A stretch of DNA of 64,000 bases from contig JABURQ010000097.1 in NCBI GenBank assembly GCA_014762625.1, forward strand, positions 56,451-120,450, given 5' to 3'. Source of the DNA: Planctomycetaceae bacterium (lineage in GTDB: Bacteria; Planctomycetota; Planctomycetia; Planctomycetales; Planctomycetaceae). This document shows positions 55,901 through 63,180 of this stretch, in pieces (positions within the stretch are counted from its first letter, which is position 1; each line of letters begins with the position of its first letter). The notes under the pieces were generated by a model. That model saw nothing but the letters and a program-made list of their open reading frames with translations, had not been told where the DNA came from and did no database searches. The position numbers were made by a program, and so were the translations under genes.

Positions 55901-57223
55901 ATGCGACCTCATTCTGTTCGCCTGCTACTGGCGGGACGATTGCGCCTTGGGGAACCGATACGTACCCCTCTTCCCCTCACCGACGAGTCGCGACACATCG
56001 CGCTCGATTCGACGTTGAACGCCTGGAAGCAGATCCAAACCAGTGCTCTGGACCGCAAAGTCGATACAGTGGTCCTGAATGGGGAGACGGTCGTTGCTGA
56101 CCGGCTCACTCCGGTCGCAGAACACGCCCTCCTCGAAGGGTTGGAATTTCTGGGGGAAGCCGGAATTCCGGTTCTGATCCAGCCGAGTGAAACCGACCCC
56201 CTCTCCTTCTGGAAACGAGTGGTCTCGGAACTTCCCCAACATCGCCACATAACTGTCGTGACTCCTCAGACATCCAGCGAGTTTTGGCTCGTGGAGGAGA
56301 ATTCGCGTCGATTCATCGTGACCGAATATCCCGATTCCCACGAAGAACAAAATCACCAGGCTCAAACAATCGCCCGCTTCGTGTCGATCTCCAGTACGTC
56401 CTCCAATCCGCAGAACGAACGAAACGAGTCGATCGATGACCGTCAACTTCCCGTCATTCACATCGAACCTGATTCCGATGAGTCACTCCAATTGCGAGAC
56501 GGAGTCGATCTGAAACTCACTCCAGACGGCGCGACCTGGAAAAATGACGAATATCAATCGGTACGACAGGATCGTTGCGGAGCGCCGCAACCTCTCTCAA
56601 GGGAGGAAGCAGAACGTTACGACGAAGCAGGCTGTCTGCTGATCGAGATTCCCACGAGGGGAGCGATTCAAACCGAGCGACTGTCTACGGCCGCGGTCCG
56701 GTTTCACACGACCAGACTCGATCTCACGGAATGCGACGACTGGGACGACGCCGCACTCAGTCTGCAAAACCAACTCGAAGACCTCGCCTGGGAACCGTAC
56801 GAACGACTCCGTCTGGTGACCTGGTCGGTGGCGACACACGATCCTCTCTCCACACAATTGCTGAACGGAGATGACAGTCATCTCATTGCCGCCTGGAATA
56901 ACGCTTTCGCATCTCATCATCACGACACGATAGTCATCCACGGATTTCAACCGGCCGGTCAACTCCCGCTCGACCTCGAATCCGCCTGTTCCGGACGAGA
57001 ACTCGCGGAGGCCCTGACTGAAATCGAACAATCCGCCGACCAACCCGAAGTCGATCGACTGGCGGCGGTCTGGGCGACCGACCTATCCTCCGCCTCTCTG
57101 CTCACCGAACTTCGTCCCGTTCTGAATCCCGCTCAGATCGGTGCCTACGCGGAATCGGTGATGACTCAGTGGCTGACCCAAAGTGACCCGGAGAATCTCC
57201 CGCATGAAAATTACTCATCTTGA
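55901..57223 (+). CDS. Mre11/SbcD/YhaO-like protein with degenerate metal-binding motifs
   Basis: Gene order with SbcC-like ATPase; aligns by eye to Mre11 motifs as LLAGRLRLG, DTVVLNGETVV, IPVLIQPSETD; later APQPLSREEAERYDEAGCLLIEI resembles the SPQ...E..GC.LVE region. Confidence 0.65.
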   Translation: MRPHSVRLLLAGRLRLGEPIRTPLPLTDESRHIALDSTLNAWKQIQTSALDRKVDTVVLNGETVVADRLTPVAEHALLEGLEFLGEAGIPVLIQPSETDPLSFWKRVVSELPQHRHITVVTPQTSSEFWLVEENSRRFIVTEYPDSHEEQNHQAQTIARFVSISSTSSNPQNERNESIDDRQLPVIHIEPDSDESLQLRDGVDLKLTPDGATWKNDEYQSVRQDRCGAPQPLSREEAERYDEAGCLLIEIPTRGAIQTERLSTAAVRFHTTRLDLTECDDWDDAALSLQNQLEDLAWEPYERLRLVTWSVATHDPLSTQLLNGDDSHLIAAWNNAFASHHHDTIVIHGFQPAGQLPLDLESACSGRELAEALTEIEQSADQPEVDRLAAVWATDLSSASLLTELRPVLNPAQIGAYAESVMTQWLTQSDPENLPHENYSS

Positions 57224-60200
57224 AATCAATCGATTCGGCGTCTGGCGGAATCTCTCTCTGCCGCTCTGTTCCCCCGAATTGAATGTGATATTCGGTCCGA
57301 ATGAAGCCGGAAAAACGACCCTGATGCGGTTTCTGCGCGGCGTCTTGTTCGGATTCTCCGATCGCGAAGGCCTCAACGCTTCCCACCCTCCCAGCGGTAT
57401 GCTGGAAGTGGAGCACGAAGGTGGAAACTACCTCATCGAGCGTACCGGCGCTACTCTGTCTATCACGGGGGATCGGGAACTCAAAGGGGACGACGCTCAG
57501 ATTTTTTTGCGGAAGATGCTCGGACAGGTCACCAAAGAGGTCTTCGATAACGTCTGCTGTTTCGGTCTCGACGAATTGCAGGAACTTTCCGTCCTCTCGG
57601 GAGAGGAAATCGTCGAGAAACTGTTCGGAGTCTCTCTAGGGCACAAAGGGAAATTCATTCTCGCCGCCCTCAAAGACGCCGAACGTCGCAAACAACAAAT
57701 GACCCTCGGCAGCGAGCACAAAATCTCGATTCGTCGACTCATCACCGAACACGATCGCTTGAGTCGGGAACTGGAGGATGTCGGTGATTCGCGGGAACGA
57801 CTCGGGCGTTTCAAACAGGATCTGCTCAAAATCGAACAGACCATCAGCGACCTGCAACGAAAACAATCGAAGCTTGAAGAAGAACGGGACGGCTATCAAT
57901 TTCTGCAGCGCGTGCACGGTCCCTGGAAACAGGTTCGCGACCTGAACGCCAAGCTCGACAAAATCCCCGAGGTGGAGGAATTTCCGGAAGACGGCATCGC
58001 CCGTCTCGACGAACTCGAAAGCGATCTCGATGTCCTGCTGGAAGAACGTTCCGCCTTGCAGTCGCAAATCAAAGAACTGGAAGAGGAACGACAGCGAGCA
58101 GAAGATTCCCGAGACATTCTCAACGAACTCCCCGCGATTCGCGTCCTCCTCGAACAAGCCGAACAACTCGACACACACAACGATCTCCCCGAGCAAGACC
58201 GCGCGGAAATACAACGCCTCGAAGAAACTCTCCATCAGAAACTCTCCGAGTTGGGAGACGACTGGACATCCGATCGACTCGAACGCCTTCACCTCACCCC
58301 CGAGCAGCAACAGGCACTCTCTCACGTCGCACAGGACTACGAACGCAGCCTCAAACGTCGCGCTCGCCTGCGTCGAAAAATCGAACAGTTGTCGAAAGAA
58401 AACCAGAAAGAGCAACAGGAACTCGAGCGGCAATCCAGTACATGGCAGGGACAATCCGGCGCGCAAATGCTGGAACGGACGGAACGTCTGCTGAATTCGT
58501 CGCGCGATCGAGAACGCCTCAACATGCGCGCCGAACAACTCGACAGTCGTCTCGAACTGCTCGAACAACAACAGCAATCGCTCATCGACAAAGAGCCGCT
58601 ACCGAAAGGCGTCCAGTACCTGCTTACCGGGTTTACGGTTGCCGGAGCGATGCTGGCCGTCGCCGGTGTCTGGAAAGGGGTCAGTACCAGCGGACTGGCC
58701 GGAGCGGTCTATTTCCTGCTGGGCTTAACGTGCGGCGGTCTCGGATTTGCGCTGCAATGGCACTTTCAAACCGAACAGGAAGAAACGCTCGGCAAACTCG
58801 AACACGAAATCAATCAACTCAAACAGCAAAGAGCCGAGATCGCCGCCAAACTGGAAGCTCTCGGTCAGACGGAACAACCGACCGACCTCTCTTCTCTCAC
58901 GGGCAAACTGGCCACCTACCAGAAGTGGATCGACCGGGAAGCGGAGTGGCAAACCAAACGCAAACAGGCGTCTGGCTTGCGTGCCTCCCTCAACGAACTC
59001 CGCCGCGATCTCGCCACTCACCGCGAGCAATGGCTCCGCACGCTCCGCGACATCGGACTGAAAGAAACCGTCAAGGTGAGTGAAGGCTGGGACTCCTGGA
59101 ACGCCGCACTGGAACTGAAATCCCTCCAACATCAGATCGCGACAATCCGCGAGAAACACTCTCATTCGGGGGAATTGCGTCAGGTGTTTGAATCGTCGAT
59201 CCGAAAGGTTCAGGAAAGGATCAGCCACTCTCCCGTCCACATACCAACGAACGAAACCCTCGACACCTGGCGGGATCGGATCTCAGAATGGACGGCACTC
59301 TGGCAACGACAGCACGAAATCAGATCCGAACTCCAATCGCTCCAATCGAGACTCAATCATGTCGATGCGGAGATTCAATCGCTCCGCTCCCGTCACTCGC
59401 AACTTCTCGCCGAAGGAGGAGCCCACGACCGGCGCAACTTCGACCAGCGGGCTCAATGGTATTTCGAACGACGTGAACTGCACGAGCTCATCACCATGGC
59501 CCAGGAGGAACTCGACCGCACCACTCAGGAAGAGCAGAGACTCGCCATCTTCGAAGACGACCTGCTCGAATATCACGAGGAAAACACGCGGGAACGGCTT
59601 CTGAAATTGTCGCAGCAACTCGAAGCTCTCGAAACCGAACTCACCGCCGCCTACGAAAAGCGGGGCAAACTGAGACAACAACGGGACGCCATTCTCCACG
59701 ACCGCCGCGAGTCGAAACTTCGCCAGGAACTCGCCGAAGTCGAAGAGCAAATCAAACAACAATGCGAACATTGGCTCGGAATCGATCGCGCCGAGCAAGC
59801 CATCTCGCACATCAAATACAACCTCGAACGGGAACAGCGCCCTGCCACCCTGCAACGCGCCGAACAATACTTCCGCATGCTGACGGCAGATCGCTATCGC
59901 CGGGTCTGGGCTCCGCTCGGAGAGCACGACCTGCACGTCGAAGATCACGCCGGCCTCGCCCGACAGCTCAACGAACTCTCCGGCGGTACGCGGGAACAAT
60001 TACTGCTGTCGTTACGCCTGGCGCTCGTCGAAGAACAGCGAAACGAAGGCGTCCACCTGCCGTTTATTCTGGACGATATACTCGTCAACTTCGACGAAAC
60101 GCGTGTGAACTCAGCGATGGAAACCTTACAGGAATTCTCGCAACACGGCACGCAGACCATTCTGCTCACCTGTCACTCGCACCTGGCGGACGCCTTCGCC

Positions 60201-60263
60201 GACCGCGACGTTTCGGTCACCAACCTCCCAAGGCGCGAACAGGGTGAACGATTAGCGGGTTGA
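57204..60263 (+). CDS. SbcC/YhaN-like AAA ATPase with central TM hairpin
   Basis: Walker A FGPNEAGKTTLMRFLRG; signature LSGGTREQLLLSLRLALVEE; Walker B LPFILDDILVNFDETR; long coiled coils; hydrophobic pair near 58600-58765; ORF opens at 57183. Confidence 0.88.
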   Translation: MKITHLEINRFGVWRNLSLPLCSPELNVIFGPNEAGKTTLMRFLRGVLFGFSDREGLNASHPPSGMLEVEHEGGNYLIERTGATLSITGDRELKGDDAQIFLRKMLGQVTKEVFDNVCCFGLDELQELSVLSGEEIVEKLFGVSLGHKGKFILAALKDAERRKQQMTLGSEHKISIRRLITEHDRLSRELEDVGDSRERLGRFKQDLLKIEQTISDLQRKQSKLEEERDGYQFLQRVHGPWKQVRDLNAKLDKIPEVEEFPEDGIARLDELESDLDVLLEERSALQSQIKELEEERQRAEDSRDILNELPAIRVLLEQAEQLDTHNDLPEQDRAEIQRLEETLHQKLSELGDDWTSDRLERLHLTPEQQQALSHVAQDYERSLKRRARLRRKIEQLSKENQKEQQELERQSSTWQGQSGAQMLERTERLLNSSRDRERLNMRAEQLDSRLELLEQQQQSLIDKEPLPKGVQYLLTGFTVAGAMLAVAGVWKGVSTSGLAGAVYFLLGLTCGGLGFALQWHFQTEQEETLGKLEHEINQLKQQRAEIAAKLEALGQTEQPTDLSSLTGKLATYQKWIDREAEWQTKRKQASGLRASLNELRRDLATHREQWLRTLRDIGLKETVKVSEGWDSWNAALELKSLQHQIATIREKHSHSGELRQVFESSIRKVQERISHSPVHIPTNETLDTWRDRISEWTALWQRQHEIRSELQSLQSRLNHVDAEIQSLRSRHSQLLAEGGAHDRRNFDQRAQWYFERRELHELITMAQEELDRTTQEEQRLAIFEDDLLEYHEENTRERLLKLSQQLEALETELTAAYEKRGKLRQQRDAILHDRRESKLRQELAEVEEQIKQQCEHWLGIDRAEQAISHIKYNLEREQRPATLQRAEQYFRMLTADRYRRVWAPLGEHDLHVEDHAGLARQLNELSGGTREQLLLSLRLALVEEQRNEGVHLPFILDDILVNFDETRVNSAMETLQEFSQHGTQTILLTCHSHLADAFADRDVSVTNLPRREQGERLAG

Positions 60264-60280: not shown

Positions 60281-61486
60281 CTATTTCCGCGCGTCGCGGA
60301 GCTTCTGCAACAGATCTTTCACCTCGTCCTGAACCTCACGGGTATGCTTCACGATAATCAAGCCATTGAGCGAAGAGATCGCCCCCGTTCCGCCGTTGTC
60401 TGACCATGAGTCAGGTTCGATGGTCGTCGTGATGACCTCGACGAGTTGACCTTCAGGAGTTGCCGGCGGCATCTTCGGCATTCCGAGCATCATACCAGAT
60501 CCCATGCCACCTCCCATGCGGCCCACGCTTCCATATCCCTCACCGCCACCGGATACTCCACTGCCGAATCCGGCACCACCTGCTTCTGCCCCATAACCCC
60601 CGCCACCTCCAGAGGCTTCGAAACCGAAATCGCCGCTCGTTTTTGAGGTTCTGGACCGAGAGTCAGCAGGCCGCAGCAAGTCGCTGCAATTGTAGATGAC
60701 GGTCTCGTAAGTCTCGAATTTCTCGGTGATCACGATCATGTTATCGCGGATCGTATAACCCAGTTGGTCTCCATTGACGATAGACTTGATCGCGTATTTG
60801 ATCAATGTTTTGGCGGAAACTGTCCCTTCGGGAAACTCCAGCGTAATCAATTCTCCAGAATCAACGATCCTGTCGCGCTTGAGTTCGATCTTGGTGATGA
60901 CGGGATCCAGAAAGATCGTCACTCCGAGTTCGTCGCCCAGCTCGGCCAGCAGCGCATTAAACGGAAGTTCGACAATATTTTGCTCCGGCAACGGCTGGGA
61001 TAGTTTACGCTCGATCTCTTCCTTACTCCCCTGAAACGGGTGATCGACCAGTTCCTGACCGACTTGTGCATCAACCTGTCCCGCCGGATTCAAAGAATTG
61101 CTGTCCGCAGCCTGGGGGACTTTGAGGTCGCTTTGAGCAACCCCCTGCGATGTCATCGGCGGTTCCGATCCCGGCCAGAAAGTGGCCAGTACGAGAATCG
61201 AACAGGTCATGGCGGCGATAGTTCCATAAGTGTAGCGCATGAGACGTCTCCTTCGATGGTGATGGGCAATGTTTGTGAAGTGATGGGCCAGAGCGGCCGT
61301 GTCTCCGAAATCTTCGAGAGCGGCGGCGATCGCCTCTTCTCGTGAGGATCCCGATTCGAGGAGATCCTCCATTCGTTCTTCGAGATGCGAACGCAACTCG
61401 TCAGAAATATTGTCGCGCTGTTCGGGACTCAGTTGGAGCAACCCCGTCAGCAACGATAACCAGTTTTCAAATTCTTGTTCGGACAT
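60281..61486 (-). CDS. HAAS/permease-prefix-like N-terminal domain, TM, STN-like domain, Gly-rich linker, secretin-N-like C-terminus
   Basis: MSEQEFENWLSLLTGLLQLSPEQRDNISDELRSHLEERMEDLLESGSSREEAI...; TM CSILVLATFW; ELPFNALLAELGDELGVTIFLDP; VEVITTTIEPDSWSDNGGTGAISSLNGLIIVKHT. Confidence 0.7.
   Translation of the reverse strand: MSEQEFENWLSLLTGLLQLSPEQRDNISDELRSHLEERMEDLLESGSSREEAIAAALEDFGDTAALAHHFTNIAHHHRRRRLMRYTYGTIAAMTCSILVLATFWPGSEPPMTSQGVAQSDLKVPQAADSNSLNPAGQVDAQVGQELVDHPFQGSKEEIERKLSQPLPEQNIVELPFNALLAELGDELGVTIFLDPVITKIELKRDRIVDSGELITLEFPEGTVSAKTLIKYAIKSIVNGDQLGYTIRDNMIVITEKFETYETVIYNCSDLLRPADSRSRTSKTSGDFGFEASGGGGGYGAEAGGAGFGSGVSGGGEGYGSVGRMGGGMGSGMMLGMPKMPPATPEGQLVEVITTTIEPDSWSDNGGTGAISSLNGLIIVKHTREVQDEVKDLLQKLRDARK
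61173..61486 (-). repeat. ~314-bp near-identical direct repeat, copy 1
   Basis: Nearly identical to 62330-62643 at an offset of 1157 bp, compared by eye. Confidence 0.85.
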
Positions 61487-61590: not shown

Positions 61591-62643
61591 TTACTGATCC
61601 ATCTTCTCCCGCAATTTTTCGAGAAGTTCTTCTACCCGCTCGTGGATTCCGGGCAACGTCTGCACGACGAGGTAGCCTTTGAATGCCGTTATACTTCCCG
61701 TATTAGGATCAACTGCCGTCCCATCATCCCAGGGGCAATCAGCATCCCTGATTGCTGCCTGAATCACACCAATGAGCCGCGTCTCGTCCTGCGTGGAAGG
61801 CATTGAGGATCTCTCCATAGTAAGCGATGAGGAGCCACCATATTCCCCACCTCCCAACTGCTGATCAATCACCTCTTGAGAATTGGTCTTGGATTTCTCT
61901 CTCTCTATCAGATCGCGGCAGTCATAGACAACAATCTCTCCACCTCTTTCCAGATATTGATCGTACGTCGTCACCATCAAAAAGTTATCTTGGATGATAT
62001 ACACCAGATCCCGCGGCCCAAGAATAAAGTCCTCCAGCATTGTTTTAAGAGACATGCTGTCCGGCCCTGTCGCCAAAACGAGTGGCTCCTCTAAATCGAT
62101 TTCGTCCGCAACTTTCGGATCGATTTCAATAGCGACTCCCTTATTGACAGCAATATCCTTAAGAACTTCCCCAAACGGCACTGTAAACCATTCTCCGGGA
62201 TACGGCTGGGCTAAGATCTCTTCAATCCGTTCGCGGCTCCCATCGAAAGGATCGGAAGATTGCACATCGGCGATCTCTTTCTCATCTGACTGTGCCACAA
62301 CAGTCTGAATCGCTGGACCGTCGGCATGGGGCCAGAACGTGGCCAGGACAAGAATCGAACAGGTCATCGCGGCGATGGTTCCGTAAGTGTAGCGCATGAG
62401 ACGTCTCCTTCGATGATGATGGGCAATGTGTGTGAAGTGATGGGCCAGAGCGGCCGTGTCTCCGAAATCTTCGAGAGCGGCGGCGATCGCCTCTTCTCGT
62501 GAGGATCCCGATTCGAGGAGATCCTCCATTCGTTCTTCGAGATGCGAACGCAACTCGTCAGAAATATTGTCGCGCTGCTCGGGACTCAGTTTGAGCAACC
62601 CCGAGAGCAGCGATAACCAGTTTTCAAATTCCTGTTCAGACAT
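61591..62643 (-). CDS. HAAS/permease-prefix-like N-terminal domain, TM, STN-like C-terminus (paralog of 60281..61486)
   Basis: First ~105 aa differ from the neighbour at three positions by eye; TVPFGEVLKDIAVNKGVAIEIDP STN-like segment. Confidence 0.7.
   Translation of the reverse strand: MSEQEFENWLSLLSGLLKLSPEQRDNISDELRSHLEERMEDLLESGSSREEAIAAALEDFGDTAALAHHFTHIAHHHRRRRLMRYTYGTIAAMTCSILVLATFWPHADGPAIQTVVAQSDEKEIADVQSSDPFDGSRERIEEILAQPYPGEWFTVPFGEVLKDIAVNKGVAIEIDPKVADEIDLEEPLVLATGPDSMSLKTMLEDFILGPRDLVYIIQDNFLMVTTYDQYLERGGEIVVYDCRDLIEREKSKTNSQEVIDQQLGGGEYGGSSSLTMERSSMPSTQDETRLIGVIQAAIRDADCPWDDGTAVDPNTGSITAFKGYLVVQTLPGIHERVEELLEKLREKMDQ
62330..62643 (-). repeat. ~314-bp near-identical direct repeat, copy 2
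   Basis: See copy 1. Confidence 0.85.
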
Positions 62644-62673: not shown

Positions 62674-63030
62674 TTATGCCGGCTTGGGTGAGATCTGCAC
62701 CACCGGTTTCAATAATTTTTCGAGGCACGCCGTCAACTCGAACCATTCCTCCGCCTGCACCTGCAATTTCTTCTTCCCCTTGGCGGTGAGGCTGTACCAC
62801 TTCCGGCGACGACCGGTTTCGCTTTCCCAACGACTGCGAATCAATTTTTCATTTTCGAGCCGCTGCAACAGCGGATAGAGCGTCCCTGCTTTCGGATCGG
62901 CCCGTCCGTGGCTGCTGTCGCGGAGCGACTGCTGGATCAGATAGCCATACTTCTCTCCTTCAGCCAGGACCGAGAGAATCATCAGGTCGAGACTGCCGCG
63001 CATCAGTTCCGTGCGAAAGGTTTCTGTCAT
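62674..63030 (-). CDS. PadR-family transcriptional regulator
   Basis: TELMRGSLDLMILSVLAEGEKYGYLIQQSL...KAGTLYPLLQRLENEKLIRSRWESETGRRRKWYSLTAKGKKKL; ORF opens at 63078. Confidence 0.93.
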   Translation of the reverse strand: MTETFRTELMRGSLDLMILSVLAEGEKYGYLIQQSLRDSSHGRADPKAGTLYPLLQRLENEKLIRSRWESETGRRRKWYSLTAKGKKKLQVQAEEWFELTACLEKLLKPVVQISPKPA

Positions 63031-63180
63031 GATCATTTCCTTATGTATCGAGATCCTATATATAGACTTCCGATACATCAGGCGTCAAGACAATTTCAGA
63101 ATACGAATGAAGAGAACGTCGTAAACCGAAACGACAGAAGGCCTTCGGAGATTAAAAAAACAAAACGATCGCCAGAACAA

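Follow-up and report, generated by a model that had tools for sequence, protein, structure and literature searches.

In Mre11-Rad50 complexes, DNA is clamped by the ATP-bound heads and the cut made by Mre11 follows hydrolysis. The coiled coil of Rad50 ends in an apex where the zinc hook, a CxxC motif, sits. How much of the work of these complexes is carried by the nuclease, and how much by tethering and sensing, is a question of long standing. In Bacillus, SbcE (YhaN) is credited with a role in break repair and competence (PMC3896406, PMC4205851). The calcineurin-like phosphodiesterase fold can also outlast catalysis in a DNA machine, since the B-subunits of eukaryotic DNA polymerases keep it, in an inactive form, as a regulatory subunit (PMC4996933).

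The locus described here belongs to a Planctomycetaceae bacterium, and "the window" denotes the whole stretch of 64,000 nucleotides that was analysed. In it, an ATG-started open reading frame on the forward strand (55901-57223, 440 aa) is followed by the frame of a Rad50-like ATPase, which starts from the ATG at 57204 and overlaps the first by 20 nt. An earlier, sequence-only reading had placed a gene in the Mre11/SbcD position upstream of the ATPase gene and had quoted four stretches of its product; the gene order was borne out, and all four stretches are found exactly as quoted in the 440-aa product, within LLAGRLRLG, NGETVV, PSETDP and APQPLSREEAERYDEAGCLLIEI. Antisense open reading frames that cluster at the pair were rejected, as they mirror the frames of these two genes. 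The features of the locus are the following.

55901..57223 (+): predicted Mre11/SbcD-fold pseudonuclease, 440 aa, with 8/8 metal or catalytic positions substituted (R13, R15, E62, E97, T98, V161, D209, A211)
55922..55957 (+): degenerate motif I, residues 8-19 (D13 to R, H15 to R)
56075..56095 (+): degenerate motif II, LNGETVV, residues 59-65 (D62 to E)
56183..56200 (+): degenerate motif III, PSETDP, residues 95-100 (N97 to E, H98 to T; the next residue, D99, is retained)
56210..56212 (+): codon 104, encoding Trp in 63/63 homologues of the ligand-poor set and 3/46 of the ligand-bearing set
56381..56383 (+): codon 161, Val, against an invariant His in ligand-bearing relatives
56525..56533 (+): codons 209-211, Asp..Ala, at the positions of the two GHxH histidines of ligand-bearing relatives
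56822..56824 (+): codon 308, encoding Trp in 60/63 homologues of the ligand-poor set and V, I, L, A or M in the ligand-bearing set
57204..60263 (+): Rad50/YhaN-like ATPase, 1019 aa, Pfam AAA_27, with GPNEAGKT, LSGGTRE, ILDDILVNFD and the H-loop intact
58617..58751 (+): apex of the ATPase coiled coil, residues 472-516, with a hydrophobic hairpin at the site of the Rad50 zinc hook

Further along the window lie two tandem genes, 60281-61486 (-) and 61591-62643 (-), whose first 300 nt are 90-100% identical per 60-nt block and encode a HAAS domain plus one hydrophobic segment; beyond them, identity is random. They look as if an N-terminal module had recently been copied, or spread by gene conversion, onto differing C-terminal domains, and a gene for a PadR regulator (62674-63078) adjoins them.

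Homology and predicted fold of the first product

Taken alone, the 440-aa protein matches nothing above chance in Pfam and NCBIfam, an unusual outcome for a gene occupying the SbcD position. It falls below the curated NCBIfam cut-off for SbcD, and a match to SAVED (E 0.11) was dismissed. The plasmid search returned no match, and a single-protein scan of the genome contigs returned no relative. When the family alignment was the query of the contigs, 22 named planctomycete loci were retrieved, the named relatives being Planctomycetaceae such as Planctomicrobium, Gimesia and Planctomyces. Orthologues are present in 32/59 relatives by single-sequence search; by profile search, 57/61 genomes of the same family have one homologue or more, counting the ligand-bearing ones.

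A profile of 26 orthologues matches the structures of Thermotoga maritima SbcD, Escherichia coli SbcD and archaeal Mre11, with E-values from 2.3e-7; single orthologues match SbcD/Mre11 weakly, up to 19/26 of them per model. In the profile alignment with T. maritima SbcD (2q8u), motif I falls on DWHLG, motif II on GDLL and motif III on GNHD, and the lost fourth and fifth motifs fall on FMGHFT and ALGHIH. The later stretch of the family, PQ..E..GC.LVEV, aligns with PGSLIRID..E..KGAVFVEL of the same protein, in agreement with the earlier claim that this region persists.

The AlphaFold model of the protein has a mean pLDDT of 78. Its N-terminal phosphoesterase core is mostly above 90, and the 10-residue means for residues 11-110 range from 87 to 98. 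In a Foldseek search against the PDB, all 50 matches listed are Mre11/SbcD, the best with E 1.7e-12 and a probability of 1.00. Normalised by query length, the TM-scores of the whole chain are modest (0.36-0.44), and this is attributed to the different placement of the capping and C-terminal parts. The profile and the predicted structure both identify the 440-aa protein as a homologue of Mre11/SbcD, with a calcineurin-like phosphoesterase fold of Mre11 type.

Loss of the metal site and history of the clade

Metal ligands and catalytic residues were counted at eight positions over 109 non-redundant homologues. As the sixth site, the count takes the His at window position 161, present in 100% of ligand-bearing homologues, and not the His of 'HxxYAP', present in 83%. 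In window numbering, D13, H15, D62, N97, H98, H161, H209 and H211 each occur in 97-100% of the ligand-bearing homologues, and the window protein reads R-R-E-E-T-V-D-A against their D-H-D-N-H-H-H-H. The substitution of motifs I, II and III and the absence of GHxH had already been noticed from the sequence, and both stand; the sixth site, His161, had been missed.

The loss extends to the family, a larger effect than the sequence-only reading had proposed. The number of homologues keeping 0, 1, 2, 3, 4, 7 and 8 ligands is 22, 28, 10, 2, 1, 2 and 44, respectively, that is, 0-4 ligands in 63/109, 7-8 in 46/109 and 5-6 in 0/109. Because this distribution is bimodal, chance or misalignment is a very unlikely explanation. 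Relocation of the ligands finds no support either, as no conserved ligands appear at shifted positions and the relatives with intact ligands align cleanly in the same columns. The commonest replacements in the ligand-poor set are D13 to N (26/63), H15 to R (27/63) and D62 to N (35/63). The surround of the active site (H10, A11, L16, D17, G61, G96, D99 and R267) is retained in most ligand-poor proteins; the window protein has changed more than most, with H10 and D17 also gone. The loss of ligands in this family is well supported by the alignments, and the 440-aa protein is very probably nuclease-dead, although some metal might still be bound by non-canonical residues.

As to the history of this loss, a nuclease tree built with the ligand columns removed has a branch (82/81) that sets all 33 ligand-poor rows apart from the others. 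The support for a single loss is moderate, and several rows of that tree are long. In a tree of the ATPase heads, with the nuclease left out, the ligand-bearing pairs lie on one branch (100/99), with the exception of the distant L112. Both tryptophans, W104 and W308, agree with a single origin of the ligand-poor clade. Graded members also exist: D, H and D are retained in L109 and L106, and D and H in L093 and L094, which suggests a stepwise loss beginning on the side of GNHD and GHxH. The frame of the pseudonuclease is full-length and open throughout the family and also in related families, and the protein is best read as an Mre11 pseudonuclease that is ancient and has been conserved in Planctomycetaceae and related families.

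Some homologues deserve a separate mention. The ligand-bearing homologue L131 (G159) carries GNED in place of GNHD, with the catalytic His alone replaced, and may show nuclease loss at an early stage in a different lineage. In addition, L098, L101, L105 and L114 (G332, G308, G005 and G192) form a second ligand-poor Mre11-like set within the same family. This set is more diverged than the main one, and its partner ATPases have a GxNGxGK Walker A and no apex hairpin.

The partner ATPase, gene pairing and alternative explanations

The catalytic motifs of the ATPase are all kept. The columns of the Walker A, signature, Walker B (DD) and H-loop motifs are invariant in 20/20 aligned orthologues, the nearest PDB sequences are those of Rad50, and the model shows a long coiled coil with half a head at either terminus. 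No CxxC zinc hook is found anywhere in its 1019 residues; the apex is occupied by the hydrophobic hairpin, with 19-residue Kyte-Doolittle means of 1.64 and 1.72 in the window protein and often 2.0-2.8 in orthologues. Among the fetched regions, 28 ATPase partners of ligand-poor nucleases have a hydrophobic apex segment or hairpin, and the four of the second ligand-poor set lack it. The hairpin was ruled out as a mark of the dead clade, as several ligand-bearing pairs also have it. Because ligand-bearing pairs include both kinds, with and without it, the hairpin is probably ancestral and older than the loss of ligands, so that the machine would already have had a hydrophobic tip when its cutting site disappeared. 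The sequence-only reading was right about an SbcC-like ATPase being retained but had missed this hairpin; its proposal of a nuclease-dead protein that keeps its ATPase partner is supported by the fold, the family-wide loss of ligands and the kept ATPase.

Wherever the contig is long enough in the fetched regions, the ATPase gene lies directly downstream of the nuclease-fold gene on the same strand. The other AAA_23/27 matches in the window's own genome are a JetC-like protein (contig C13), an SMC-like protein (C96) and an unrelated ATPase (C41), none of them with an Mre11 gene beside it. The same contig C13 holds a four-gene Wadjet-like cluster with JetA/B/C/D-like genes (L151).

The occurrence of other copies bears on the possibility that the 440-aa protein is a regulator, acting as a decoy, of an intact YhaO/YhaN or SbcCD in the same cell. 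TIGR00619 matches are found in 33/61 family genomes, so that about half have a second, ligand-bearing homologue, and one genome (G332) holds two dead pairs together with an intact one. However, each copy there has a separate ATPase, and the dead copies in general come with an ATPase gene of their own. Furthermore, TIGR00619 and profile searches detect no ligand-bearing SbcD/YhaO-type copy in the window's genome and two congeners (in the former, no SbcD scores above the curated cut-off, and the profile finds only the copy at 55901-57223), yet the dead pair is still under purifying selection in these genomes. A decoy role is therefore unlikely.

An altered metal site, still hydrolysing phosphodiesters or some other substrate, is quite improbable. 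Some ligand-poor homologues do keep D13 (12/63), H15 (8/63) or D62 (16/63), and L106 and L109 retain the three together. Nevertheless, 22/63 match the window protein in keeping none of the eight, no alternative set of D, H or N is conserved at the ligand columns across the family, and the replacements at N97, H98, H161, H209 and H211 are a mixture of E, P, Q, L, A and G.

A Lamassu- or Wadjet-type defence system, in which an SMC-like ATPase acts with an unusual partner, is highly improbable. LmuB models give the ATPase a weak score (E 1.1e-11), as they tend to do with coiled-coil ABC ATPases. No LmuA, LmuC or Jet partner adjoins the pair, no third gene is conserved in the fetched neighbourhoods, and the pseudonuclease has no PADLOC match. 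Moreover, the presence of homologues in nearly all genomes of the family (57/61) differs from the patchy distribution of defence islands.

In three congeneric genomes, dN/dS is estimated at 0.17-0.32 in the pseudonuclease gene and at 0.06-0.09 in the ATPase gene, values that are rough because dS is near saturation, and both genes are under purifying selection. That the first gene is decaying and retained solely through translational coupling to the ATPase is scarcely credible: it does evolve faster (dN 0.22-0.41 against 0.11-0.19) and its frame overlaps the ATPase frame by the 20 nt mentioned above, but nonsynonymous change lies far under synonymous change, the open frame is full-length across the whole family and related families, tryptophans are newly conserved, and the fold is well predicted.

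Proposed mechanism and comparison with known systems

The preferred explanation is that the dead Mre11/SbcD-fold subunit still works with the Rad50/YhaN-like ATPase encoded downstream, in a non-cutting DNA clamp that is probably tethered to the membrane; this explanation is judged likely. Since the gene order and the homology are those of a nuclease-ATPase pair, the two products would associate physically. The ATPase would dimerise and close on DNA in an ATP-dependent manner, like Mre11-Rad50, and the dead Mre11 would act as a scaffold that bridges the heads and grips the DNA, as well as a governor of the ATPase state, without cutting. Upon hydrolysis, the retained parts would reopen from the DNA, and the apex hairpin would hold the complex, and hence the DNA, at the cytoplasmic membrane. 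A tether or clamp is proposed because the cutting site is gone and the retained parts could still close, open and hold. By analogy with SbcE (YhaN) of Bacillus, its job would probably be in the handling of double-strand breaks or in chromosome positioning, and, in view of the role credited to SbcE, DNA repair and uptake would be the first processes to consider.

More tentatively, a whole bacterial lineage may carry a nuclease-free, membrane-anchored machine of the Mre11-Rad50 type, in which the dead Mre11 has been adapted, through W104 and W308, to a different binding function and which would be the only such complex in the window's genus. No description of such a system was found in the literature searched, in which most subscription papers were absent. 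With regard to the division of work between nuclease and tethering, evolution itself has separated the two here, by erasing the cutting site and retaining the ATPase and the pairing, and this would provide a natural nuclease-free complex in which to study DNA tethering, head engagement and membrane attachment.

Compared with Mre11/SbcD of the SbcCD complex, the window protein has the same fold, the same position before a Rad50-like ATPase and the same PQ..E..GC.LVEV stretch, but lacks all metal ligands and the catalytic His. In contrast to Rad50, its ATPase has a hydrophobic apex hairpin instead of a CxxC hook. The earlier statement that this is not an ordinary SbcCD is thus supported, with the amendment that the closest intact relatives look like YhaO/YhaN (SbcE) rather than classical SbcCD. 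YhaO-YhaN is, like the window pair, a two-gene module with an AAA_27-type ATPase, the Bacillus proteins being likened here by description only. The polymerase B-subunits have another partner and belong to another lineage, and are a precedent for the type of evolution, not for a shared function. The ligand-bearing planctomycete homologues of the YhaO-YhaN type (such as L118-L120, L099 and L102) are similar along the whole nuclease and in several cases have the apex hairpin; they keep 7-8 of the 8 ligands, whereas the window clade keeps 0-4 and has W104 and W308. These sister pairs, some of them within the same genomes, could serve as controls for the nuclease-free complex.
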